Below, piece by piece: positions 18,059 through 29,600 of a stretch of DNA of 44,260 nt. The stretch's first letter is position 1, and every line of letters starts with the position of its first letter. Source of the DNA: Aestuariivirgaceae bacterium (GTDB lineage Bacteria > Pseudomonadota > Alphaproteobacteria > Rhizobiales > Aestuariivirgaceae). Below the pieces are notes generated by a model. The model did not search any database and had not been told where the DNA came from. It saw only the letters and a list, made by a program, of their open reading frames with translations. The translations under genes and the position numbers were made by a program. The stretch lies in the NCBI GenBank assembly GCA_028282065.1, contig JANQIR010000260.1:1-44260 (forward strand), read 5' to 3'.

Positions 18059-20020
18059 TCAGACGAGAATCTGTCCGTTGTCCTGAAGGTCCGTCAAAGA
18101 CAGGTTCGTGACGCCTTCCAGCACAACCACGTCGTGCCATGCGCCGGTGCCTTGATACAACACCGATACGGTCGTGTTGCCGTTGTCTTCGGTCAGAGCG
18201 ACGACATCTGCGATGTCCTGCCCCTCGGAGATGTTCGCGGCATTTCGTAGATCCAATACATCTTCACCCGAGAAGTCTGCGATCGAGTCCACATGGAACT
18301 GTGTGCCGGCATGGCTGACGATGTCTTGCTGTGACCATACGAAGGTATCGGAGCCTGCCCCGCCTTCGAAGATGTCGTCGCCGCGCCCGCCCTGGAACAG
18401 GTCGTCGCCCTCGCCTCCGACAAATTCGTTGTCGCGATGGTCGCCGGTGAAACTGTCGGCCTTGCGGGTGCCAATGATCTTTTCGATGCCTTTGATCTGG
18501 TCGCTGCCAAACCCGCTGACGCGGCCGGTTTGCAGATTCGCGTCGATACCGGAATTGGACGCGGAGTAATCCGCCGTATCGAAGCCCGATCCGCCGTCGA
18601 TCCAGTCGTCTCCCTCGCCGGCGCGGATCAGGTCATCGCCGCTGTCGCCTTTTACGCGATCATTGCCTGCGCCGCCTTCCAGGATGTCGTCGTTCTTACC
18701 GCCATACAGTTTGTCGGATCCTTCGCCGCCGATCAGCTCATCGTCGCCGTCACCACCTTTGAGCGTATCGTTGCCCTCATTACCGGAGACAAAGTCGTCG
18801 CCGCTGTCGCCATAGAGAATATCGTTGCCGGCCCCGCCGCCCACGGTATCGTCGTCTTTACCGCCGCGCACGGTGTCATTGTCGTCACCGCCGTAAAGTT
18901 CGTCATTGCCGGTGCCGCCATAAAGAACATCGTCGCCATCATCGCCGTAGGCATGGTCATCGCCGCTGTCGGCCAGAATGGTGTCATCGCCGCGTCCACC
19001 GCGGATCACGTCGTCGTCCTTGCCGCCGGCAATCTCGTCATTGCCGTCACCGCCGGCGATTTCGTCATCACCGGTGCCGCCGGAGATCTCGTCCGCGCCG
19101 TCATCACCGGACAAGTCATCATCGCCGCTGTTGCCCTGTATGATATCGTCACCAGTGCCGCCGTTTACGATGTCGTCGCCCTTGCCGCCATAAACGGTAT
19201 CGTTGCCGGCGCCGGCCTTGATGGTGTCGTCATCGCCGTACGCGCTTGGCTGGTCGTTGTGCGATTGTGGGGCGGCAGCGGGGGGGACGGCCACGCTGAT
19301 CACAACGTCATTGAAGTCTTTATCGCCGCCGTTTCTGAGATCTTCAAAGGCGATCTGGATTTCTTCGCCGGAATCGCCAGGTGTGACGACCGCATGCTGC
19401 ACGCCGTCATTGTTCAAACGATATCCGGTGTCATCATTGCCGATCGAGTGATAGACGTCCGTCCCATATTTACTGCGGACTACAGTCTCTTCACCGGTTT
19501 CGCGATCAATCCGTACAAGTGTTGCAGGGCCATCCGTGACGCGGGCCTGCTCGCCGTTCGAGTTGCGGAACTCAAACACAGAAACATTACTTTGTAGCAG
19601 GTGGCGATTGGCGGAGATGCTCCAGGCATCTGGAATTATGAAGAAGCCGAGTTGAACGCCGCGCACAGTGCCATATTCGAACTCCGACTGGCCGGGTTTC
19701 AAACTCCCGCCACTGCGCTGGGCTGAGGCGTTGGAAAACACGATCTCGACATCGTAGATCAGGCCGTCTTCTGCAATCTTGTAAACGCCGATGGCACTTT
19801 TATAGCCGGCTTCTTCGGATTCGAACGTGATGACCGCCGTGGATGAATCCGATACGACGGCGTTCCCGGTGCTTGCCGGCTCTACGCGTGACCCGCCGAA
19901 GATGATGTCATCTCCGGCCTTGCCGGAGATTTGGTCATCACCGCCACCACCCAGGATCTCGTCAGTATCCCGGGTGCCATTGAGAACGTCGTCACCGTTC
20001 GTGCCAAGTATGGTGCTCAT
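18059..20020 (-). CDS. RTX-type calcium-binding protein with DUF4114 domain
   Basis: 653 residues, very acidic. Order: four nonapeptide calcium repeats (residues about 5-43), a DUF4114-type beta domain (about 80-245, with the diagnostic GGDKDFNDVVISV), about 24 tandem GGxGxDxxx nonapeptides (about 269-484), three more repeats (about 534-560), and a C-terminal block (SIADFSGEDVLDLRNA to the end) typical of type I secretion targets. There is no Sec signal, as expected for ABC-type secretion. No lyase, epimerase or protease catalytic motif is visible. The start is supported by GGAG six bases upstream. It lies 117 bp downstream of the algD-like gene on the same strand and may be the last gene of the alg44-alg8-algD unit. 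A matrix adhesin or polymer-binding role is inference; no type I transporter is in the window. Confidence 0.88.
   Translation of the reverse strand: MSTILGTNGDDVLNGTRDTDEILGGGGDDQISGKAGDDIIFGGSRVEPASTGNAVVSDSSTAVITFESEEAGYKSAIGVYKIAEDGLIYDVEIVFSNASAQRSGGSLKPGQSEFEYGTVRGVQLGFFIIPDAWSISANRHLLQSNVSVFEFRNSNGEQARVTDGPATLVRIDRETGEETVVRSKYGTDVYHSIGNDDTGYRLNNDGVQHAVVTPGDSGEEIQIAFEDLRNGGDKDFNDVVISVAVPPAAAPQSHNDQPSAYGDDDTIKAGAGNDTVYGGKGDDIVNGGTGDDIIQGNSGDDDLSGDDGADEISGGTGDDEIAGGDGNDEIAGGKDDDVIRGGRGDDTILADSGDDHAYGDDGDDVLYGGTGNDELYGGDDNDTVRGGKDDDTVGGGAGNDILYGDSGDDFVSGNEGNDTLKGGDGDDELIGGEGSDKLYGGKNDDILEGGAGNDRVKGDSGDDLIRAGEGDDWIDGGSGFDTADYSASNSGIDANLQTGRVSGFGSDQIKGIEKIIGTRKADSFTGDHRDNEFVGGEGDDLFQGGRGDDIFEGGAGSDTFVWSQQDIVSHAGTQFHVDSIADFSGEDVLDLRNAANISEGQDIADVVALTEDNGNTTVSVLYQGTGAWHDVVVLEGVTNLSLTDLQDNGQILV
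18569..19216 (-). repeat. Coding tandem repeat, 27-bp period (RTX nonapeptides)
   Basis: About 24 degenerate copies of a 27-bp unit encode consecutive GGxGxDxxx nonapeptides of the RTX gene. The period and glycine/aspartate codons are evident, but the units diverge at most third positions, so this is an old array. Confidence 0.85.
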
Positions 20021-20137: not shown

Positions 20138-21559
20138 TTACCAGGAAATGCCGTGGTAGGTCGCCTCGTCCAACCGGTTCGGAAACAGCCGCACAAGGTC
20201 GATCACGTGTATGTTTTCGGGCCGCATTCGAACCGCGTCGCGGTAGTCGTCTCGTGCGTGGCTGACCACCAGAACGTCGCAATTGTTCACGACCTGCTCG
20301 ATGGATGGCAGCAAGACTTCCGGCAGCTGGTCCATGAGCTTTGCCAGGTGAGGCCTGGCATGGCGCATATAGTCGAAATGCGACCTGGCGGACTTCTCCA
20401 CCTGCAGGTTTGGATCAAAGGCGCAGAATTCCCGGTCTTCTTCGAGCATCGCCGCCATGAGTTCCAGGGCCGGACTTTCACGCAGATCGTCGGTATCGCA
20501 CTTGAAGGCCACACCGAGAAAGCCAACCCGCTTGCCCGGGAAGTTCCGGATCATCCGCAAACCTTCCTCGATCTGCAGTTTGTTCGAGCGCATCAAGCTG
20601 TCGAACAGCGGCGTGTGGATCTGATAGGCCTGTGCCAGATGCTCAACGGCGCGCACTTCCTTCGGCAGGCACGACCCGCCGAACGCGAAGCCGGGTTTGA
20701 GATAATAGGGCGACAGGTTGAGTTTCGTGTCCTCCACGAAGATGTTCATAACTTCGTGGCTGTCGACCTCCACGGCCTTGCACAACCGGCCCACCTCATT
20801 GGCGAATGTTACCTTCGCGGCATGCCAGACATTGTCGATATATTTCACCATTTCCGCACCGGTGATCGAACACAGCAGGACCTTGTCGTCGATCAGACGG
20901 TAGACGCCGGCAAGATGCGCGGCGGCCCGTTCACTGGAGGCGCCGATCACGGTCTTGGGCGGGTTGTAGAAATCTTTGACGGCGACACCTTCACGCAGGA
21001 ACTCCGGATTGAAACAAACGCCGAAGCCGGTGTCGAGGTCCTTGCCGGAGGCTTGCTCGACTTCCGGTACGACAACACTCATCGTCGTGCCTGGAGGGAC
21101 CGAGCAGCGCATCACGACCAGATGATAGCCCGGCTTGTCCTTGATCGCGCGTCCGATCGCCTGGGCGGCGGCGCGCACATAGGTCATGTCACAGCCGCCA
21201 TCTGCCGCCGTCGGTGTGCCGACCGACAGGAAGGTTATGTCGGTCTCGCGAACCGCGGCCTCGACGTCTGTCGTTGCATGAATCAGCCCACGCGTAACGC
21301 CATCATTGAGAAGCTCTCCAAGACCTTCTTCTACGATGGGAGACTGGCCCTTGCTGATCGAATCGACTTTCGCCTGAACCACATCGGCGCCAACCATGCG
21401 GAATCCCAGATTTGCGAAACACGCTACGGAAACGGCTCCGACATAGCCAAGACCGATGACACTTATGGATGGCTTCGTGGCAAATTCCGAATTGATGATA
21501 TCGGCAGTGCGCACCCAAGTCTGTTTATCAGTTTCAAGCGCACCAGCTGAGTTTGACAT
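20138..21559 (-). CDS. algD: GDP-mannose 6-dehydrogenase (AlgD-like)
   Basis: The UDP-glucose/GDP-mannose dehydrogenase fold is complete: NAD-binding GLGYVGAVS, FLSVGTPT, FNPEFLREG, the central NVWHAAKVTFANE helix, and the active-site FAFGGSCLPKEVRA with catalytic cysteine, then GVAFKCDTDDLRESP. The GGSCLPK form, with Leu after Cys, is that of AlgD rather than of UDP-glucose dehydrogenases (usually CFPKD). It would oxidise GDP-mannose to GDP-mannuronate in the cytoplasm. I place the start at ATG 21559 (473 residues) with GGGGAG upstream; this leaves about 30 residues before the Rossmann fold. It follows alg8 after 219 bp. Confidence 0.88.
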   Translation of the reverse strand: MSNSAGALETDKQTWVRTADIINSEFATKPSISVIGLGYVGAVSVACFANLGFRMVGADVVQAKVDSISKGQSPIVEEGLGELLNDGVTRGLIHATTDVEAAVRETDITFLSVGTPTAADGGCDMTYVRAAAQAIGRAIKDKPGYHLVVMRCSVPPGTTMSVVVPEVEQASGKDLDTGFGVCFNPEFLREGVAVKDFYNPPKTVIGASSERAAAHLAGVYRLIDDKVLLCSITGAEMVKYIDNVWHAAKVTFANEVGRLCKAVEVDSHEVMNIFVEDTKLNLSPYYLKPGFAFGGSCLPKEVRAVEHLAQAYQIHTPLFDSLMRSNKLQIEEGLRMIRNFPGKRVGFLGVAFKCDTDDLRESPALELMAAMLEEDREFCAFDPNLQVEKSARSHFDYMRHARPHLAKLMDQLPEVLLPSIEQVVNNCDVLVVSHARDDYRDAVRMRPENIHVIDLVRLFPNRLDEATYHGISW

Positions 21560-21778
21560 TTGTCTTGTGCTCCCCAAGAACCTGTTTCGCTGCTGTCCTC
21601 CCCTAGACGGCCCGCAGCGTTGCCCTCGCACCAGAACACCACAAACATCGCAATATTTCCTGAACTGGCGTGCTTAATTTTCGCCAAACAGAACGTGCCA
21701 GTATGTCGTTGCATTCAGGGAGATAGCCGATCTGCCCGGTGGTTACCCACGCCTGGTGTGATCCGTTCCGATTGATAG
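21560..21778 (-). other. Intergenic region between alg8 and algD
   Basis: 219 bp. It may hold a separate promoter for algD, but none could be recognised. A CGTGCCA string occurs around 21694-21700 without the matching -12 element, so I do not call a sigma-54 promoter. Confidence 0.4.
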
Positions 21779-23368
21779 TCACGCGCCTTGCGTCACGAAG
21801 TGGAAAAGGCGGATGCCGGGCATGTCCACAAGGCCGGTCATTAAGATGACGATCAGAAACAATGCGGTGACGCCGACAAATGTCTGGTATGCCGACATGC
21901 CTTCGCGCGCCATGCTTATGAGACGGTCGCCGGAGACACCGGCTTTTTGATCGCCGCGGTTGAACCAACGCTGTTTGGACAGGCGGAAGATGCTGTAAAC
22001 CTTGACCGCCGCGTTGACCACCTGATTGATATACATGACCCATGGATAGCTGAGATCCACCGTGCGGGCATAGGTCCACAGAACGGCCGACAGCATCAGA
22101 CGGGAAATCGCGATAAAGATAAGATACTGGATCAGGTATGCAGGCGAATGCAGGAACGCGGCTGCCACCGCGACGGCGGGGCTGACCAGCATGGTCCACA
22201 TGGCAATGCGCTGATCCACGAAGCACCACCAGATAAAGAACGGCACCCTGGCGGGACCAAGCGCTATCACCCGCGCGCCGTTGCGCAGCATGTTGCCTGA
22301 CCAGCGCCGGTAATTCTGGATCATGCGGTTGACGCCATTGCCCTCAACCACTTCCACAGTGTAGCCGCGCGCGTCAGGCACGTAGAGCAGCCGGGCGCCA
22401 TGCTTCAGCATATAATACAGTGTTGATTTGTCGTCTCCTGAGAGGAAACGGAAACCGCCCCACAGCCAGTGGTCGAGATAGTCGGCCTCCAGCAGCCGGA
22501 TGAATTCCCTGGTCTTGACGTGTTTCACCCGGAACACCGACATGCGCCCGGTAAGCGTCAGAACGCGGCCGGCCAGCGCATGCGACTGCATGGCCAGGCG
22601 TCGCTGGGCAAACCGCATTGACAGCATGGACTGCATCCATCGCGGCGCCTCGGCAATCACCTCTTCGTCGGTGGTCACCGCCTGCAGGTCGGGATACATC
22701 TTGAACAGCGGCAGGCAGTTGCGCACCGCACCCGATTCCATGATGAAATCACCGTCCATAAACACCACGATGTCATCGTCGGGTACGTTGGCGCGGCTCA
22801 TCGCCCTGAGAACCAGGCCGATCGCCATGCGCTTTCCGCCGACATTCTGACGAATGATCCGCAGTGTGATGTCGAGGTCGGCCGCCACCAGTTTGAGCTG
22901 GTTCTCGATGATGTCTTCGTCGAACTGGTCGCCGGAGCCGAGCCAGATCGTGGCCGGTATTCCGGCTTCGCGCACCTGGACGACCATACCGCGCACCACA
23001 GCCTCGGTGATTGCGCGGTGCTCTTTGTAGGTCGTCATCATGAAATGCAGGTGTTTCGGGCGCCAGCCGCTGTCGAGAATCCTGCGGCCCTCGGCCTGCA
23101 TTTTCGGATAAACCAGACGGCCGTACACCACAGCCCGGGCGGCATGGGTGAACCACCAGGAAAAACGCCAGATCCCCAGGAAACCGATGACATAGGTGAC
23201 CTGCCGGATTTCGGGGTCGAACAGCTTGTTCGGCACCAGGGAGATGGCGATGGCGCACACACATATATAAAGGGCGATCTGAATGAGAACCGTGAGGTTC
23301 CACTTTTCCCAGCCGGCCGGCCAGTACCCCGGATCGTTCAGTCTGGGTGAGGCGGGTTTCGGAAACAT
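21779..23368 (-). CDS. alg8: Alg8-like mannuronan synthase glycosyltransferase (GT2)
   Basis: 529 residues, slightly longer than Pseudomonas Alg8. Two N-terminal membrane helices are followed by the cytosolic GT2 domain with VVFMDGDFIME (DxD), the Alg8-typical LAMQSHALAGRVLTLTGRMS, LEADYLDHWLWGGFRFLSGDDKST (acceptor aspartates) and QNYRRW (QxxRW), then three or four C-terminal helices. Alg8 polymerises GDP-mannuronate and, with Alg44, forms the inner-membrane synthase. AGGAG precedes the ATG at eight bases. It begins 18 bp after the alg44 stop. Substrate identity rests on the neighbours (GDP-mannose dehydrogenase, guanylyltransferase) and is not proven. Confidence 0.88.
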   Translation of the reverse strand: MFPKPASPRLNDPGYWPAGWEKWNLTVLIQIALYICVCAIAISLVPNKLFDPEIRQVTYVIGFLGIWRFSWWFTHAARAVVYGRLVYPKMQAEGRRILDSGWRPKHLHFMMTTYKEHRAITEAVVRGMVVQVREAGIPATIWLGSGDQFDEDIIENQLKLVAADLDITLRIIRQNVGGKRMAIGLVLRAMSRANVPDDDIVVFMDGDFIMESGAVRNCLPLFKMYPDLQAVTTDEEVIAEAPRWMQSMLSMRFAQRRLAMQSHALAGRVLTLTGRMSVFRVKHVKTREFIRLLEADYLDHWLWGGFRFLSGDDKSTLYYMLKHGARLLYVPDARGYTVEVVEGNGVNRMIQNYRRWSGNMLRNGARVIALGPARVPFFIWWCFVDQRIAMWTMLVSPAVAVAAAFLHSPAYLIQYLIFIAISRLMLSAVLWTYARTVDLSYPWVMYINQVVNAAVKVYSIFRLSKQRWFNRGDQKAGVSGDRLISMAREGMSAYQTFVGVTALFLIVILMTGLVDMPGIRLFHFVTQGA

Positions 23369-23386: not shown

Positions 23387-24997
23387 CTACAGCAGAAGCG
23401 AGGCGATCTTGCGCCACATGGCGGCAAGGATCGGATTTGTCGAGCGGGCCTCGAACAAAACGACGGCAGGCATGCCAGGCGTGACCTGGGTCTGAATGAA
23501 CGCCTCGTCCTCAGCCGAGAACGACAGGGCGATCTCCGCGGAACGATCTTCCGGAGACCGCCAGGAATAGCGCCGGGCGATTTCCTTCTGAAAGCCCTTG
23601 GTGCGGTCTATCGCGGTGACGGTCGCCCTGACCGACGTGCCGAGCGATGGGAAGTAGACGGAAGCCTCATCGTCCAGGCCGATCTTGATGACCTCGTCCT
23701 GTGTCAGGTAGGCCAGCACCTTGCGCTGCTGATATTGTTCGAAGACCGCAACCACGTCGCCCTGCTTGACCGACGCCGATTCCGGCCGCGGCAGGCGCAG
23801 CAGTCTTCCGTCAAACGGCGCATGGATGGCCAGCCGCTCGCGATGTTTGAGAAGTGCTTCGTGTGCCTGGTGGGACAGGGAAATCTGATAGCGCGCAAGC
23901 CGGATATTGGCGTCAACCTCGCCCATGCCGCCGAGCAGTTCGCGGCCATTGAAGAAGTGCCTTCCCAGGCCGGTATTTGCCAGGCGAATCTGTTCTTTCA
24001 ACTCCACGCGCCTGGATGCCAGACGCGAACGTGCCGCCGCCAGGAACTGGTTGGCCTCATCCAGCTGGGCATTGGTTGCATAGCCCTGCCTCAGCAGTTT
24101 CCGGGTACGTTCGTAGCGCGACTTGGCTGCCTTGTGGCGCGCCTGCAGCGCCTCCACGTCCAGCTTGGTCTGTTCGATGTTCTTTAGCCCGACCGAAGCG
24201 TATTCGGTCATTCGCTCCAGTTCCGCATTGCGCTTTTGCAGCAGGCTTGTGAGTTCGGCCTCCCGGCGCTGGATGTCGAGCTTCGCCATGTCGATCTGTT
24301 TTTCCAGATCGAAGTCGGCGAAATAGATCACCGTGTCACCCTTCTTCACCGCTTCGCCGACAGAGGCGCGAACGAAGGCGATCTGCCCATCGCCCTGCGC
24401 GCGCACCTCCACCATTGGTGCGTCAATTACGGCGGTCTGGACCTCCATGCGGAAAACATTGGAGTAAAGCACCAGTGCCATATAGCCGAAGACCAGAAAA
24501 CCGATGACCGCGTATGTGCCGACCCAGGCGATCTGGCGGAGCGGGATCTTCTTTTCCTGGACGACGGCTTCGTTTTTCGGGTCAGGATCAGTGGAGACCG
24601 GTGTGACGGGAACGTCGATACGCTGAATGGATTCAGCAACCTCTGACATCGAGCCCCGCACAAGGTCCTCGATGAAATGGTGCATGAGCGATTGCTCACG
24701 CTCGCCGATTTCGGTGTATTCGACCGCAAATGACTTGATGCCCGGGACGGCGCGCACCACCCGCGCCTTCGCGGCGAACGAGATATCAAAACCCTGAAAC
24801 GGCAGCGTCACCGCGAGATCGATTTCAGAACCGACTTTCGGAAGCTCTTCTGGGTAGTTGTCGACCCGGACACCGCCGAGCGACCAGTCATGTGCGCGAA
24901 CCGATGGACCGTCAACGCCGACACGCAAGAACAGCGGCGCAGTCACCCGATGGTGACGCCGCTGGTCAGGTCGTTCTCGCCGTACGCGTATCGCCAT
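23387..24997 (-). CDS. alg44: Alg44-like PilZ / HlyD protein (c-di-GMP-binding co-polymerase)
   Basis: 536 residues. Residues about 1-130 form a PilZ domain with both c-di-GMP signatures, RxxxR at R13-R17 and DxSxxG at D37-G42. A single membrane helix at about 160-185 is followed by a periplasmic HlyD-like part: a biotinyl-lipoyl half (VRAQGDGQIAFVRASVGEAVKKGD), a long coiled coil (about 235-345), the second half (HAPFDGRLLRL) and a beta-barrel. In P. aeruginosa, Alg44 binds c-di-GMP to activate Alg8. It is the first gene after a consensus sigma-54 promoter (25054-25069), with GGGAG five bases before ATG 24997. This PilZ plus HlyD architecture is characteristic of Alg44. Confidence 0.9.
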   Translation of the reverse strand: MAIRVRRERPDQRRHHRVTAPLFLRVGVDGPSVRAHDWSLGGVRVDNYPEELPKVGSEIDLAVTLPFQGFDISFAAKARVVRAVPGIKSFAVEYTEIGEREQSLMHHFIEDLVRGSMSEVAESIQRIDVPVTPVSTDPDPKNEAVVQEKKIPLRQIAWVGTYAVIGFLVFGYMALVLYSNVFRMEVQTAVIDAPMVEVRAQGDGQIAFVRASVGEAVKKGDTVIYFADFDLEKQIDMAKLDIQRREAELTSLLQKRNAELERMTEYASVGLKNIEQTKLDVEALQARHKAAKSRYERTRKLLRQGYATNAQLDEANQFLAAARSRLASRRVELKEQIRLANTGLGRHFFNGRELLGGMGEVDANIRLARYQISLSHQAHEALLKHRERLAIHAPFDGRLLRLPRPESASVKQGDVVAVFEQYQQRKVLAYLTQDEVIKIGLDDEASVYFPSLGTSVRATVTAIDRTKGFQKEIARRYSWRSPEDRSAEIALSFSAEDEAFIQTQVTPGMPAVVLFEARSTNPILAAMWRKIASLLL

Positions 24998-25053: not shown

Positions 25054-25069
25054 AGCAATGTCCGTGCCA
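25054..25069 (-). promoter_or_regulatory. Sigma-54 promoter of alg44-alg8-algD
   Basis: On the minus strand the sequence is TGGCACGGACATTGCT, matching TGGCACG-N4-TTGCW at every defined position, with GG and GC ten bases apart. The predicted transcription start near 25043 leaves a leader of about 46 bases before alg44. Confidence 0.88.
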
Positions 25070-25132
25070 GACGGACTGTCATTGAAATAATTGGGTTTTT
25101 GCCGATTTCGGTCAATTTCCGGGAACCGGCCT

Positions 25133-25145
25133 TTGCAAGCCGCAA
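25133..25145. promoter_or_regulatory. LuxO-type activator site, imperfect copy
   Basis: TTGCA-AGC-CGCAA matches the Vibrio LuxO site TTGCA-N3-TGCAA with one mismatch. It lies 33 bp (about three helical turns) from the perfect copy. Confidence 0.6.
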
Positions 25146-25165
25146 TCAATTTCGCAGCTTGCTCT

Positions 25166-25178
25166 TTGCAATTTGCAA
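25166..25178. promoter_or_regulatory. LuxO-type activator site, perfect copy
   Basis: TTGCA-ATT-TGCAA is an exact match to the LuxO consensus TTGCA-W3-TGCAA. It is about 97 bp upstream of the alg44 promoter and about 102 bp upstream of the cupin promoter, a standard distance for an enhancer-binding protein. The gene for a LuxO-family activator lies 0.7 kb away. Confidence 0.8.
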
Positions 25179-25279
25179 ATTCCCAATCCCCCGTCCGCCC
25201 GGATGAGAAACGCCGTCCGGCGGTATAATTCACGGCAAATCAAGACGTTAACAGCTGCGAGCGTGCGTTTGGCCCGTAC

Positions 25280-25295
25280 TGGCATGGCGATTGCC
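25280..25295 (+). promoter_or_regulatory. Sigma-54 promoter of the PMI cupin gene
   Basis: TGGCATGGCGATTGCC matches TGGCACG-N4-TTGCW except for one base in the -24 block and the last base; the GG and GC are separated by exactly ten bases. The predicted start near 25306 leaves a leader of about 84 bases before ATG 25390. Confidence 0.78.
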
Positions 25296-25389: not shown

Positions 25390-25818
25390 ATGAACAGCGT
25401 CGTACCTGCCATAAAGGCACCCGCCGAAGGCGAAGAGTTCACAGCACTGTTGCCGGATCACCGTGAGGCAATGGCCAACAATGCCGTCCATCGGCCTTGG
25501 GGAAGTTTTGAATCGGTTGTTTGCGGTGAGGGCTATCAGGTCAAGCGGATCGTTGTTTCGCCAGGAAAGAAGCTGTCCCTGCAATACCATCATCATCGCT
25601 CCGAACACTGGACGGTCGTTTCGGGCGAAGCGCATGTCACGCTGAATGAAGACATTCTGATATTGCGGCCTGACGAGAGCATCTATGTTCCCCTTGGCGC
25701 GGTTCACAGACTTGAGAACCGTGGAGACGACGATGTCGTGGTCATGGAGGTGCAATGCGGCACGTATCTCGGCGAAGATGACATCGTTCGCGTTGAGGAC
25801 GATTTTGGCCGCGTGTGA
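25390..25818 (+). CDS. Stand-alone mannose-6-phosphate isomerase type II cupin
   Basis: 142 residues from ATG 25390, with GGGAG eight bases upstream. The sequence equals the C-terminal MannoseP_isomer domain of bifunctional AlgA/ManC: RPWGSFESV, GYQVKRIVVSPGKKLSLQYHHHRSEHW with the metal ligands (Q, H, H, E, H), VPLGAVHRLEN, and VEVQCGTYLGEDDIVRVEDDFGR. It would isomerise fructose-6-phosphate to mannose-6-phosphate, feeding GDP-mannose synthesis. The partner guanylyltransferase lacking this domain is encoded at 28398-29600. It is transcribed away from alg44 under its own sigma-54 promoter. Confidence 0.88.
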   Translation: MNSVVPAIKAPAEGEEFTALLPDHREAMANNAVHRPWGSFESVVCGEGYQVKRIVVSPGKKLSLQYHHHRSEHWTVVSGEAHVTLNEDILILRPDESIYVPLGAVHRLENRGDDDVVVMEVQCGTYLGEDDIVRVEDDFGRV

Positions 25819-25876: not shown

Positions 25877-25908
25877 AAAACACCCTGAATTTTACGAGGC
25901 GGTGTTTT
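25877..25908. terminator. Hairpin at the 3' end of the LuxO-like gene
   Basis: AAAACACC (25877-25884) and GGTGTTTT (25901-25908) form perfect 8-bp arms around 16 bases. Both strands read the stem into a T-run, and the gene's stop at 25892 lies in the loop. It would serve the convergent cupin and regulator transcripts. Confidence 0.55.
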
Positions 25909-27331
25909 CCGCCCAGGCTTCGCGCTTGCGGTAGATGGTCGACGGGCTGACGCCGAGTACGCGGGCTGCCTTGGGAATGCTGCCGTCGCAGGCTTTGATC
26001 GTATGCTCGATTGCCCGCTTTTCGATCTCCCAGAGTTCCAGGCCGTAAGGAAACCGCAAGGGCAGTTGTTGCGCGTCGCGAAGGCCGGAAATGTCCAACG
26101 GCGCTTCCATCACTTCATCGCCGCGTCCTGCGGATGTTTCTACCTCGATTTTCGCTCCGGCCGGCGCCGGCAGCATGTCCGATGTCACCACCGGGCCGTT
26201 GTTCAAAACCACCGCCTGCCGCACGGCATTCTGCAACTCGCGCACATTGCCCGGCCAGCTGTGCGACAGAATCAGCTCTTCGGCATCCGGTGAAAATGAC
26301 TCGAACGCCTTGCCTTCCTCGCCGGCAAAGATCTTGAGAAAGTGCCGGGCTATATCGAGTGCATCGTGCCCGCGTTCGCGCAACGGCGGAAGATCGAGGG
26401 GCAGAACATGCAGTCGGAAATACAGGTCTTCGCGAAAGCGCCCGGCGCGTACTTCTTGAAGCGGTAGCTTGTTGGTGGCGCATATGATCCGGATGTCGAC
26501 TTCTTCCGGCACCGTCGAGCCGACCCGCTGGATCAGGCCTGTCTGCAGAAAACGCAGGAGTTTGGTCTGCAGGGACAGGTCCATTTCGCAGATCTCGTCG
26601 AGAAACAGCGTTCCCCCGTCGGCCAACCTGGCGGCGCCTTCGCGATCCGAAATCGCGCCTGTGAACGAGCCCTTCAGATGGCCGAAGATCTCCGATTCCA
26701 TGAGATCGCGTGGAATTGCGCCGCAATTGAGCGCCACGAAAGGCCCGGATGCGCGAGGGCTCTTGCGGTGAACCGCCTCTGCGCACAGTTCCTTGCCGGT
26801 CCCGCTCTCACCGGTGATGAAGACCGATGCCTTTGACTGCGACAAGGCATCGATCCTGGAATAGATCTGCTGCATCTGCTGCGAGGCACCGATAAAACCG
26901 CAGAAAGAGTTTGCCTGCACATGGTCGGGCCGGGCCGCCGCGGCTTCCTTGAGATCACAACGCTCAAGGGCGTTCCGCAACGTGGTTACCAGCCGGTCTT
27001 TGGTCACCGGCTTGATCAGGTAATCATAGGCGCCTTCGCGAACCGCCTCGACTGCCATGGCGATAGAGGCATTGGCGGTAATCACCACAATGCTCGTGCC
27101 GGAATGCTGCTGGTTGAGTTCGCGCAACAACTCCAGTCCGGTCACGTCCGGCAGGCCGATATCCAGCAGAACGGCCTTGTATTGCTGTTTCGCCACCATA
27201 TGCCGGGTATCGGCACCGGTCGCGGCAATATCAACCAGGAATCCCGCCGATTCCACCTGGCTGCGATAGATGGCTGCAAGCGATACGGTGTCCTCAACCA
27301 GAAGAATCCGGGGCTGATCACCATGCGGCAT
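25892..27331 (-). CDS. LuxO-family sigma-54-dependent response regulator
   Basis: 479 residues: receiver domain (1-120; D57 in AVLLDIGLPD), AAA+ sigma-54 activation domain (about 145-385; Walker A GESGTGKE, Walker B GGTLFLDEI, loop GSFTGA) and a Fis-type helix-turn-helix at the end (GSIPKAARVLGVSPSTIYRK). The alignment from memory with Vibrio LuxO is close across the central domain and the C-terminus (KASVFITGESGTGKE, EMDLSLQTKLLRFLQTG, IEKRAIEHTIKACDG, SPSTIYRK). It lies 31 bp downstream of the receiver-Hpt gene. LuxO-type operator sites and two sigma-54 promoters lie 0.7 kb away. The loop has Ser where GAFTGA is usual; Phe and Thr are kept. Confidence 0.9.
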   Translation of the reverse strand: MPHGDQPRILLVEDTVSLAAIYRSQVESAGFLVDIAATGADTRHMVAKQQYKAVLLDIGLPDVTGLELLRELNQQHSGTSIVVITANASIAMAVEAVREGAYDYLIKPVTKDRLVTTLRNALERCDLKEAAAARPDHVQANSFCGFIGASQQMQQIYSRIDALSQSKASVFITGESGTGKELCAEAVHRKSPRASGPFVALNCGAIPRDLMESEIFGHLKGSFTGAISDREGAARLADGGTLFLDEICEMDLSLQTKLLRFLQTGLIQRVGSTVPEEVDIRIICATNKLPLQEVRAGRFREDLYFRLHVLPLDLPPLRERGHDALDIARHFLKIFAGEEGKAFESFSPDAEELILSHSWPGNVRELQNAVRQAVVLNNGPVVTSDMLPAPAGAKIEVETSAGRGDEVMEAPLDISGLRDAQQLPLRFPYGLELWEIEKRAIEHTIKACDGSIPKAARVLGVSPSTIYRKREAWAENTAS

Positions 27332-27362: not shown

Positions 27363-28217
27363 TCACCGGCTGGCCTGTGTGGCGGCGAGTGCCTGGGTGG
27401 TGTTCTCCACGCATTTGCAGATCGCCGCGACCTGATCGGCCAGTTCCGCCGGAGATTGGGCGTCCACGTCGGATTCCAGTTGAAAGGCCAGATCTGCCAG
27501 TTTCGGCGCCGCGAAGGTGCGTGCGATACCCTGTAGTTTATGGCTGTAGTGCAGCATGGTGTTTGTGTCGCTGCTCGACTGGGCCATGGCGATGGTGCGT
27601 GCAAATTCACGCATCTCCGAGATTGCACTTTCCAACAATTCGCCCCAGGCCGCCGGCGCGATCTGCGCCTTCACTTGAGCCATGGCCGCCGGGTCGACAA
27701 AACTCTCTTCCGCTGCCTGTTTTGGTGTGCCGGCTGCTGCGTCATCTGCAGGAGCTGCCGTCTGGCGGGGCTTTGCCTGCGACAAGGCGTTTTGGATCAC
27801 TTCGCGAAGCTGTTCCTTGCCGGCAGGTTTGGCAAGCGAGCCGTCGAAACACTCCTGCCAGACGGCTGCGCGTCTGGTGTCGGCCATGAAGGCAGACAAT
27901 GCGATAATCGGCGTGCGCCCGGCAGCACCGCCAAGCGCGCGAATCTCCTGTGCGGCGACGACCCCGTCCATCACCGGCATTTCAATGTCCATGAGAACGA
28001 GGTCATACCCAAAGGTCTGGATATGGGCGAGAGCCTCCTCGCCATGTTCAACGGCGTCGACGTCACATCCCATACGGCGCAGCAACGCTGAAGTTAACAC
28101 GCGCGCAGCGGCGGAATCTTCGGCCAGGAGAATTTTAGGACGCGATCCGTCCGGACAGGTCAGCAATCCCGAACGGTGCTGATCCGCGGTGCCGAATTCT
28201 TGTGTTTCCATACTCAT
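27363..28217 (-). CDS. Receiver-Hpt phosphotransfer protein
   Basis: 284 residues. Receiver domain about 27-145 with the phosphoacceptor D77 (YDLVLMDIEMPVMDG), acidic pair (AED) and K130 (LAKP). After a linker rich in Ala and Gln, the Hpt domain (about 175-275) carries H226 in YSHKLQGIARTF; the usual HxLKG lysine is Gln. There is no kinase or DNA-binding domain, so it should relay phosphate from a hybrid kinase encoded elsewhere to a response regulator, most simply the LuxO-like protein directly downstream. The Vibrio counterpart is LuxU, which lacks the receiver. Confidence 0.85.
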   Translation of the reverse strand: MSMETQEFGTADQHRSGLLTCPDGSRPKILLAEDSAAARVLTSALLRRMGCDVDAVEHGEEALAHIQTFGYDLVLMDIEMPVMDGVVAAQEIRALGGAAGRTPIIALSAFMADTRRAAVWQECFDGSLAKPAGKEQLREVIQNALSQAKPRQTAAPADDAAAGTPKQAAEESFVDPAAMAQVKAQIAPAAWGELLESAISEMREFARTIAMAQSSSDTNTMLHYSHKLQGIARTFAAPKLADLAFQLESDVDAQSPAELADQVAAICKCVENTTQALAATQASR

Positions 28218-28397: not shown

Positions 28398-29600
28398 CTA
28401 TGCCGCCTTTGTTTCCGGGCCTGCTTTCATGCTGCGCCGAACTGGCTTCTTGGATGTATCGTCTTTCTTGACTGGCAGGATTACCTGTGGTGCCGATTGG
28501 TCTTTTCTCTGCCGCACGGCTTCTGCAATCTGGCGGATTTCCTGCGCATGGCTCTTCGCAGCCACGATGACCGCATCACCTGTGTTGACGACAATCACAT
28601 CATCCAGCCCAACCACGGCTGTCACCGGGCCCTCGGAGCGCACATAGGCGCCCTTGACGTCATGCAGAATGACGTCGCCGATGGTAACGTTCTCCGCATT
28701 GTCGCGTTCGGAAATCTCCCAAACGGCCGTCCAGGAGCCGACATCACTCCAAAGAGGATCGACCGGAACAACAGTTGCACGCGCGGTCCGCTCCATGACC
28801 GCGTAGTCGATCGAGATATGCTCTGCCTGTGCAAAGCTCCTGGCATGCGGCTGCACGGTCTGGCCGGAAACCTTGCCTTTCACCAGGGCGTCCTGACAGG
28901 CCGCGATGATCCCCGGTGACAGCACCTGCATTTCCTGAATCAATGGCGTTACCGGAAACAGGAACATTCCGCTGTTCCAGTAGAAACAGCCTTCCTGCAA
29001 CATCGTAACGGCTTTGTGCCTCGGCGGTTTTTCGACGAACTGTTCGACCGAGAAAATGCCCTCAAGGGCCTTGCTCTTGGTATGGGTAATCACCGGTGAG
29101 CCTTGTTTGATATAGCCGTAGCAGGTTTCCGGCCCATCCGGCGCAATGCCGAATGTGACGAAGGCGCCTGTTTGCGCGGCGCTGCGTGCCTTATCTATGG
29201 CCGAAATCATGGCGTCCGGATCGCGTATATAGTGGTCCGAAGGCATGATCAGCATGTAGTCTGAGAATTTGCAGGCAAAGGACGTCAGTGCAGCCAAGGC
29301 AACGGCGGGTGCCGTGTTGCGGCCTTCCGGCTCGAGAATAATTGCCGCTGGCTCCACGCCACAGGCCGCCAGTTCTGTCTCCAGCAACGCCTTGTGTCCC
29401 TCGTTGCCGACGATGACCGGCGCAGTGAACCGTTTGGTGTCGCCAACCCTCAGAAGGGTTTGCTGAAACATGCTGAGCTGTCCGGCAATTGCCTGAAATT
29501 GCTTCGGCTTTTCATCACTCGACAGAGGCCACAACCGGGTCCCCGAACCTCCCGCCAGGATCACCGGCGTAATGCGCTGTCCCGTTGCCCCCTTGGCCAT
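28398..29600 (-). CDS. manC: Mannose-1-phosphate guanylyltransferase (lacks the isomerase domain)
   Basis: 400 residues. The nucleotidyltransferase domain starts with ILAGGSGTRLWPLSSDEKPKQF, has FVEKPPRHKA, WNSGMFLF and DVGSWTAVWE, and ends near residue 365; the remaining 35 residues are basic and low in complexity. It makes GDP-mannose from mannose-1-phosphate and GTP. Classical AlgA/ManC proteins carry a C-terminal mannose-6-phosphate isomerase cupin; here it is absent, and the matching domain is a separate gene at 25390. GAGGAG precedes ATG 29600 at eight or nine bases. Confidence 0.9.
   Translation of the reverse strand: MAKGATGQRITPVILAGGSGTRLWPLSSDEKPKQFQAIAGQLSMFQQTLLRVGDTKRFTAPVIVGNEGHKALLETELAACGVEPAAIILEPEGRNTAPAVALAALTSFACKFSDYMLIMPSDHYIRDPDAMISAIDKARSAAQTGAFVTFGIAPDGPETCYGYIKQGSPVITHTKSKALEGIFSVEQFVEKPPRHKAVTMLQEGCFYWNSGMFLFPVTPLIQEMQVLSPGIIAACQDALVKGKVSGQTVQPHARSFAQAEHISIDYAVMERTARATVVPVDPLWSDVGSWTAVWEISERDNAENVTIGDVILHDVKGAYVRSEGPVTAVVGLDDVIVVNTGDAVIVAAKSHAQEIRQIAEAVRQRKDQSAPQVILPVKKDDTSKKPVRRSMKAGPETKAA

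Follow-up and report, generated by a model that had tools for sequence, protein, structure and literature searches.

In Vibrio fischeri, the LuxO-like protein SypG activates sigma-54 promoters of the syp polysaccharide locus and, according to the available part of the same report, also the sRNA gene qrr1, via sites overlapping TTGCA-N3-TGCAA; the motif reported for SypG is TTCTCANNNTGMDWN (PMC10162802, in excerpts). The LuxO sites of Vibrio cholerae qrr2 and qrr4 are given as ttgcaatttgcaa in the accessible text of PMC10328515, and qrr promoters are described in excerpts of PMC3352281 with the same operator and sigma-54 consensus motifs as those found in the locus studied here. More generally, sigma-54 has been portrayed as a controller of the bacterial exterior with a general link to exopolysaccharide genes, and no mention of LuxO was found in the available part of that article (PMC3162934). 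Among the matches listed from the open-access PMC literature, none described a LuxO-type exopolysaccharide circuit in Alphaproteobacteria, nor a sigma-54/LuxO-operator sRNA of the present type in this class.

Here, we analysed a stretch of alphaproteobacterial DNA of 44,260 nucleotides, referred to as the window, which contains an exopolysaccharide cluster next to a gene for a LuxO-type regulator. Alginate-type synthesis by Alg8/Alg44 involves a PilZ-HlyD co-polymerase, a family-2 polymerase and genes for GDP-sugar supply. The genes of the window and the sites between them are listed in Table 1. GMP and PMI represent two halves of one known bifunctional enzyme, and both halves were found in one single frame at 17 of the 63 named loci compared below. 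In the window the enzyme is split, with PMI placed at the divergent promoter and GMP upstream of the REC-Hpt and regulator genes. The regulator gene is convergent with PMI, while REC-Hpt and GMP lie upstream of it on the same strand.

Table 1 Features of the window and of related candidate sRNA loci.
Feature	Position	Strand	Remarks
RTX calcium-binding repeat protein	18059-20020	minus	Pfam HemolysinCabind, 11 stretches, and DUF4114
Nucleotide-sugar dehydrogenase	20138-21631	minus	Pfam/NCBIfam domain search
Family-2 glycosyltransferase (Alg8/NodC-like polymerase)	21779-23368	minus	Pfam/NCBIfam domain search
alg44-like PilZ-HlyD protein	23387-24997	minus	First exopolysaccharide operon gene; Pfam PilZ, HlyD_3
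Sigma-54 promoter TGGCACGGACATTGCT	25069-25054	minus	Faces alg44-like gene; 0 mismatches to TGGCACGNNNNTTGCW
Second putative operator copy TTGCAAGCCGCAA	25133-25145	none	1 mismatch
Third operator copy TTGCTCTTTGCAA	25159-25171		Overlaps perfect copy; 1 mismatch
Perfect putative LuxO-type operator TTGCAATTTGCAA	25166-25178	none	0 mismatches to TTGCA-N3-TGCAA
Sigma-54 promoter TGGCATGGCGATTGCC	25280-25295	plus	Faces PMI cupin gene; 2 mismatches
PMI (mannose-6-phosphate isomerase cupin half, lone)	25390-25818	plus	Pfam MannoseP_isomer; TIGR01479 positions 351-466
LuxO-type response regulator / sigma-54 activator	25892-27331	minus	Pfam REC, AAA+ sigma-54 activation domain, HTH_8
REC-Hpt phosphorelay protein	27363-28217	minus	Adjoins regulator; Pfam Response_reg, Hpt
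GMP (mannose-1-phosphate guanylyltransferase half)	28398-29600	minus	TIGR01479 positions 1-351
Candidate sRNA, ~85 nt	G000:C139:13568-13655 (= L066:5569-5656)	minus	Relatives L196, L197, L201, L203, L206-L210
Roseibium-type candidate sRNA	L230, L232-L237, L241		Eight sRNA-type sites in Roseibium or Roseibium-like genomes

The start codons of the alg44-like gene (24997) and of PMI (25390) are separated by 392 bp. Two divergent sigma-54 sites flanking paired TTGCA-N3-TGCAA copies had been predicted for this region, and letters as well as coordinates were reproduced in the sequence. The perfect operator was correctly placed almost equidistant from the two promoters, at edge distances of 97 and 102 bp, and its 13 letters are identical to the V. 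cholerae qrr2/qrr4 LuxO sites as given in the accessible text of PMC10328515. The two separate operator copies start 33 bp apart, and the centre of TTGCAAGCCGCAA lies 70 bp from the start of the minus promoter. The third, overlapping copy may be an incidental match. The terminal base of the plus promoter is C.

These motifs could in principle be chance matches in AT-rich intergenic DNA. At up to 2 mismatches, the number of sites in the whole window is indeed at chance level, both for sigma-54 (9 vs 11.2 expected) and for the palindrome (26 vs 24.6 expected), and weaker motif copies therefore prove nothing by themselves. Exact matches, in contrast, are rare: the 3.98-Mb draft genome contains 6 exact sigma-54 sites and 9 exact TTGCA-N3-TGCAA palindromes, and the reversed-pattern control gave 0 in either case. 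Together with the recurrence of the layout far above controls described below, this led us to reject a chance origin, which is contradicted by conservation and to which we assign hardly any probability.

We also considered reading a genome-wide regulon from exact palindromes alone, and rejected this approach as 5 of the 8 sites outside the window fall within longer open frames (some of them possibly miscalled). Two further sites, on contig C139, are located inside only a doubtful frame antisense to another open frame, with sigma-54 sites at up to 2 mismatches nearby. The remaining copy of TTGCAATTTGCAA lies beyond the picked frames (G000:C55:9457-9469, L065:5458), with no sigma-54 site at up to 2 mismatches within 260 bp. 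The stretch fetched around it also contains an Rfam suhB/mmgR RNA (L065:7759-7839).

Within the family, to which Anderseniella belongs, an alg44 match at E 1e-20 was obtained in 7 of 69 genomes. Both divergent sigma-54 sites were present in all six promoter regions read (G000, G001, G008, G009, G014 and G019), the aligned minus and plus sites thus being kept in five relatives of the source genome. The operators between them differ. G008 carries one copy with 1 mismatch, G014 and G019 (the latter the same genome as named locus L078) have perfect TTCGA-N3-TCGAA sites, and in G001 and G009 no operator at up to 1 mismatch was found between the two promoters, although both promoters are kept.

A scan of named genomes with the alignment of the window's glycosyltransferase as query yielded 63 loci, from Anderseniella, Rhizobiaceae, Roseibium, Cohaesibacter, Emcibacter, Pelagibius and records labelled Colwellia, Bermanella and Porticoccaceae. 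After dropping seven loci with the gene start off the contig and two without alg44 match, 54 upstream regions were usable, of which 51 remained upon removal of three near duplicates; the window was not counted. A sigma-54 site within 300 bp before alg44 was present at up to 2 mismatches in 35/51 regions (random mean 1.3, maximum 4), at up to 1 mismatch in 17/51 (random mean 0.3) and as exact match in 5/51 (random mean 0.1). The operator was found at up to 1 mismatch in 26/51 regions, compared to a random mean of 1.9 and a maximum of 7; 16 regions lacked the sigma-54 site and 25 the operator at these respective thresholds. In an unbiased count of every palindrome with 5-base arms and spacers of 0-12, TTGCA-N3-TGCAA was the most over-represented (10/51 regions, 0.18 expected), whereas over 200 shuffle rounds the highest count for a palindrome was 5.

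A divergent GMP/PMI gene was present in 14 named loci and in the window, a set that includes G001, G008 and G019 again. All 15 loci showed an opposing sigma-54 site, nine at up to 2 mismatches, five at 3 and one at 4, whereas the random rate of such a site in a stretch of equal length is 1.3%, 3.6% and 11% at up to 2, 3 and 4 mismatches, respectively. The spacing of the promoter starts is 197-200 bp in 12 of these loci and 187, 211 (window) and 212 bp in the others, which corresponds to steps of roughly one helical turn. For comparison, among 21 loci without divergent gene but with an alg44-side site, four have a site at up to 3 mismatches within 150-260 bp, and none has a minus-strand site of this quality at 185-214 bp. 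Two conserved divergent sites with a shared operator, the pattern expected of a sigma-54 divergon, were found in the window, while the operator is missing in some relatives. Operator distance and half-site differ among loci. A helical phasing of the operator offsets is suggestive only, as 33 offsets from related loci and seven periods gave a best p of ~1e-4, uncorrected.

The fixed spacing bears on the possibility that the minus promoter facing alg44 is functional alone and that the plus match is a relic of a fused GMP-PMI promoter. The plus site of the window, with its 2 mismatches and terminal C, would fit such a relic, as would the relocation of GMP to the regulator's side and the observation that, compared to the alg44 site, the opposing site is weaker in 12 of the 15 divergent loci, equal in two and stronger in one. 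A relic would hardly be expected to persist at fixed spacing in 15/15 divergent loci, however, and the lone PMI cupin of G014 and G019 comes with an operator of its own and with a sigma-54 site of 2 mismatches. We therefore regard loss of function of the plus promoter as improbable.

The regulator had been assigned to the LuxO family. This holds for its LuxO-type domains and its recognition helix, SPSTIYRK, which is that of all seven proteins scoring above the LuxO cut-off in 148 genomes of the order to which a Colwellia record belongs. LuxO (PDB 5ep0) is also the closest solved structure, and LuxO is the top NCBIfam model (NF041946, equivalog). The score of 588 bits nevertheless falls short of the cut-off of 800. 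In a maximum-likelihood tree of 63 proteins, which also took in further LuxO-like proteins from the order of the Colwellia record, the window regulator clusters with the regulators of the exopolysaccharide clusters in G008 and G009 (100/87), then with cupin-linked paralogs of G014 and G019 (98/87) and finally with a G005 protein (100/99). The seven above-cut-off proteins form a single clade (100/99), and the window regulator belongs to another supported group, together with proteins from Alphaproteobacteria; the deep forks of this tree are open, and some long branches were flagged. Score and tree position led us to reject simple LuxO orthology. In the AAA+ domain, the sigma-54 contact loop reads GSFTGA instead of GAFTGA. 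GSFTGA is also seen in close relatives of the regulator, and the G014 and G019 cluster regulators have GAFTGA. The distance of 0.7 kb originally given for the activator gene applies to its near end (0.71 kb from the operator), which is the 3' end; the start codon is at 27331.

Is this protein the one that uses the operators? The source genome encodes rpoN and, besides the window regulator, further sigma-54 activators, so that the sigma-54 promoters could be real and the palindromes be used by another enhancer-binding protein, with the neighbouring LuxO-type gene serving other targets. The variation of operator distance and half-site by locus and the near relatives G001 and G009 without clear operators are in line with this alternative. 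When the fetched stretch contained a LuxO-type gene, 21 of 24 regions had a sigma-54 site, compared to 14 of 27 when it did not; for the operator the difference was small (16/24 vs 13/27). A gene missing from the stretch may still be present in the genome, since R. album and R. denhamense carry theirs outside the stretch or close to its border. Because the association of operator and nearby regulator proved weak, we raised the weight of another activator and slightly lowered that of the main reading. Against another activator, SPSTIYRK occurs only in the window protein among five activators of the source genome with the C-terminus read, and the operator equals the LuxO 13-mer. On balance, we give the involvement of a different protein a small chance.

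Next to the regulator, the REC-Hpt gene points to a phosphorelay input. Among the 63 named loci, 30 have a frame that matches this protein with more than 60 bits. All but one of these frames reach at least 700 residues, the size of hybrid kinases (29 frames, counting near-duplicate loci), and a CxxCH motif is present in 18 of the 29. In the window, no kinase gene was found beside REC-Hpt. The protein resembles the tail of the hybrid kinase that relatives encode close to the regulator; in the window, the kinase portion is absent. Six kinases of relatives were scanned: those of L045, L084 and L097 have a Tll0287-like domain, those of L079, L090 and L105 PAS domains only, and all except the L084 kinase contain an Hpt domain. 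Examples combining CxxCH with a Tll0287-like sensor domain are L045:8957-12055, L084:1815-4937 and L097:17921-21472, and kinases of this kind could possibly be c-type haem redox or gas sensors. Since the kinases of relatives carry PAS or Tll0287-like sensors and only REC-Hpt is left in the window, Vibrio autoinducers are unlikely to be the signal.

A second potential target was found on another contig of the source genome. In five genomes (G000 on C139, G001, G008, G014 and G019), an operator pair 20-22 bp apart and a sigma-54 site precede a candidate sRNA beside a glutamine-amidotransferase-like gene (named by eye). The second operator of the pair has 1 mismatch in G014 and G019, and the source genome's own promoter has 2 mismatches. 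The predicted transcript has two hairpins, the 5' one with GTATWGCGTA as loop core and the other resembling a terminator. The same layout thus precedes the candidate sRNA in the source genome and four relatives, and it also occurs in genomes outside the family. The term 'autonomous', applied to the divergent regulon in the original prediction, is accordingly too narrow.

A covariance model of the transcript parts only was applied to 397 genomes of the order and matched eight of them. The three model members other than G000 and G014 are absent from these matches; they may not have been among the genomes searched. In seven of the eight, the sigma-54 site is placed at exactly -26 or -27, with an operator of 0-1 mismatches upstream. 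As G000 and G014 are model members, G536 and G559 nearly identical and G256 and G331 of the same genus, the seven amount to three or four independent tests. In G006 (L211), a homolog with conserved gene neighbourhood has neither sigma-54 site nor operator, and the best regulator match of this genome is only 38% identical. In the stem of the candidate sRNA, 54/54 cells are paired and 3 of 6 pairs are changed on both sides, a covariation score reached by 0/500 shuffles. A second model, run over 40 polymer-cluster genomes, produced ten matches at E 0.1, and most of these genomes had none. Three matches have promoter and operator, two of which (L212 and L213) seem to repeat loci already in the model; the other seven, weak hits with neither, were judged to be chance. 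An Rfam search of the sRNA positions, both of the Parvibaculaceae type and of the Roseibium type described below, matched no family. The idea that the sRNA loop pairs with the start region of alg44 was rejected as unsupported (ranks of 35 to 296 out of 300 random segments in 12 genomes scored), and this analysis yielded no target. Likewise, none of seven loop words of 8-11 nt occurs on either strand of the window. The regulator of the window probably has the candidate sRNA as its second output; in terms of sequence, this would be a Qrr-like output outside Vibrio.

A composite pattern of exact operator, 82-112 bp gap and sigma-54 core was present in 17 of 46 genomes and never in the reversed control. 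The 18 distinct loci comprise 13 of sRNA type, one unexplained (L222) and four at polymer genes, namely the window (in both directions), L229, L231 and L238, the last before a sugar dehydrogenase. Members of Roseibium, among them R. album, R. denhamense, R. hamelinense and R. sediminis, and Roseibium-like genomes account for eight of the sRNA-type sites. The candidate sRNAs at these sites have a common two-hairpin architecture with loop core GGTWGTGCGT; 99.3% of the cells are paired, both sides have changed in 7 of 19 pairs, and the score was reached by 0/500 shuffles. No clear T-run was seen in the transcripts examined. A patatin-like gene (named by eye) precedes the site in two Roseibium loci and in G559. 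The Roseibium and Parvibaculaceae RNAs are likely homologous.

Among the regions examined, exact TTCGA-N3-TCGAA was restricted to L078 (= G019), L082, L084 and G014, and the regulators of these four relatives form one clade (100/100). The half-site switch from TTGCA to TTCGA in one regulator clade concerns loci L078, L082, L084, L045 and L046, and inspection by eye singled out no residues behind it. G014 and G019 harbour a second paralog beside the lone PMI cupin, with an exact TTGCA-type operator and the sigma-54 site mentioned above. This suggests that the switch may insulate the two coexisting paralogs.

Taken together, a divergent, LuxO-type, sigma-54 switch of the exopolysaccharide cluster is very likely to be real, as far as can be judged from sequence comparison. 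We consider it probable, with good confidence, that a phosphorelay-fed LuxO-type activator drives both sigma-54 promoters from shared sites. That such an activator acts on the promoter pair had been proposed before, and apart from the autonomy this is supported by the presence of rpoN and by the recurrence of promoter pair, operator and nearby LuxO-type gene in other genomes. Points against it are the plus promoter with 2 mismatches and final C, the GSFTGA loop, the missing adjacent kinase, the absence of clear operators from G001 and G009 and of site or operator from part of the 51 regions, the weak association of operator and nearby LuxO-type gene, the TTCGA-N3-TCGAA sites of four relatives and the 2 mismatches in the source genome's own sRNA promoter. 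In the proposed mechanism, the 392-bp region would act as a shared enhancer between two divergent sigma-54 promoters. Phosphate would pass from a kinase via REC-Hpt to the receiver domain of the regulator, and the activated protein would bind the TTGCA-N3-TGCAA sites, its AAA+ ring opening sigma-54 polymerase at both promoters through DNA looping. The minus promoter is predicted to serve the polymer operon, i.e., PilZ subunit, polymerase, sugar dehydrogenase and RTX calcium-binding protein, and the plus promoter PMI for mannose activation. The regulator or its orthologs may also drive the small RNA elsewhere in the genome, whose expression we infer from the same kind of promoter.

A wider hypothesis, toward which we lean with little more than even confidence, is that alphaproteobacterial LuxO-type regulators use one operator code for two outputs, a helically fixed two-promoter exopolysaccharide divergon and a trans-acting, Qrr-analogous sigma-54 sRNA. 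In that case, Vibrio quorum sensing would represent a variant of an older proteobacterial matrix/sRNA circuit that in several lineages would be driven by haem-type or PAS sensor kinases rather than autoinducers, and TTCGA-N3-TCGAA of the Parvibaculaceae-centred clade would insulate paralogs. Through this analysis, the operator code of LuxO/SypG, along with its sigma-54 logic, is extended beyond Vibrio to genera with named strains, e.g., Roseibium, and a fixed-geometry model is offered of one enhancer serving two opposing sigma-54 promoters. It also provides predicted small RNAs without Rfam match, whose targets may explain biofilm entry or exit in these bacteria.

In comparison to known systems, SypG/syp is the closest described analogue, sharing LuxO-like sigma-54 activation of a polysaccharide locus and of an sRNA gene. 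It belongs to another bacterial class, the window operator is unlike the SypG motif, and the available part of PMC10162802 mentions neither a divergent promoter pair of fixed spacing nor an sRNA of the window type. With Vibrio LuxO/qrr, as far as described in the accessible texts, the locus shares domain layout, recognition helix, operator 13-mer, sigma-54 promoters and sRNA output. Unlike LuxO, the regulator lies below the cut-off and outside the LuxO clade, its target is an exopolysaccharide cluster, and the scanned kinases of relatives carry PAS or Tll0287-like sensors. PilZ-HlyD, family-2 polymerase and GDP-sugar supply genes are as in the alginate-type system, whereas the RTX protein in the operon and the LuxO-type control are not. 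The original prediction knew of no such description outside Vibrio-type systems; with SypG of V. fischeri, a LuxO-like sigma-54 activator of a polysaccharide locus was already known. The switch thus resembles SypG/syp and LuxO/qrr in its working, yet its regulator is not LuxO by score or tree position, and what is new is the lineage in which it occurs, the divergent promoters at fixed spacing and the candidate sRNA as output.
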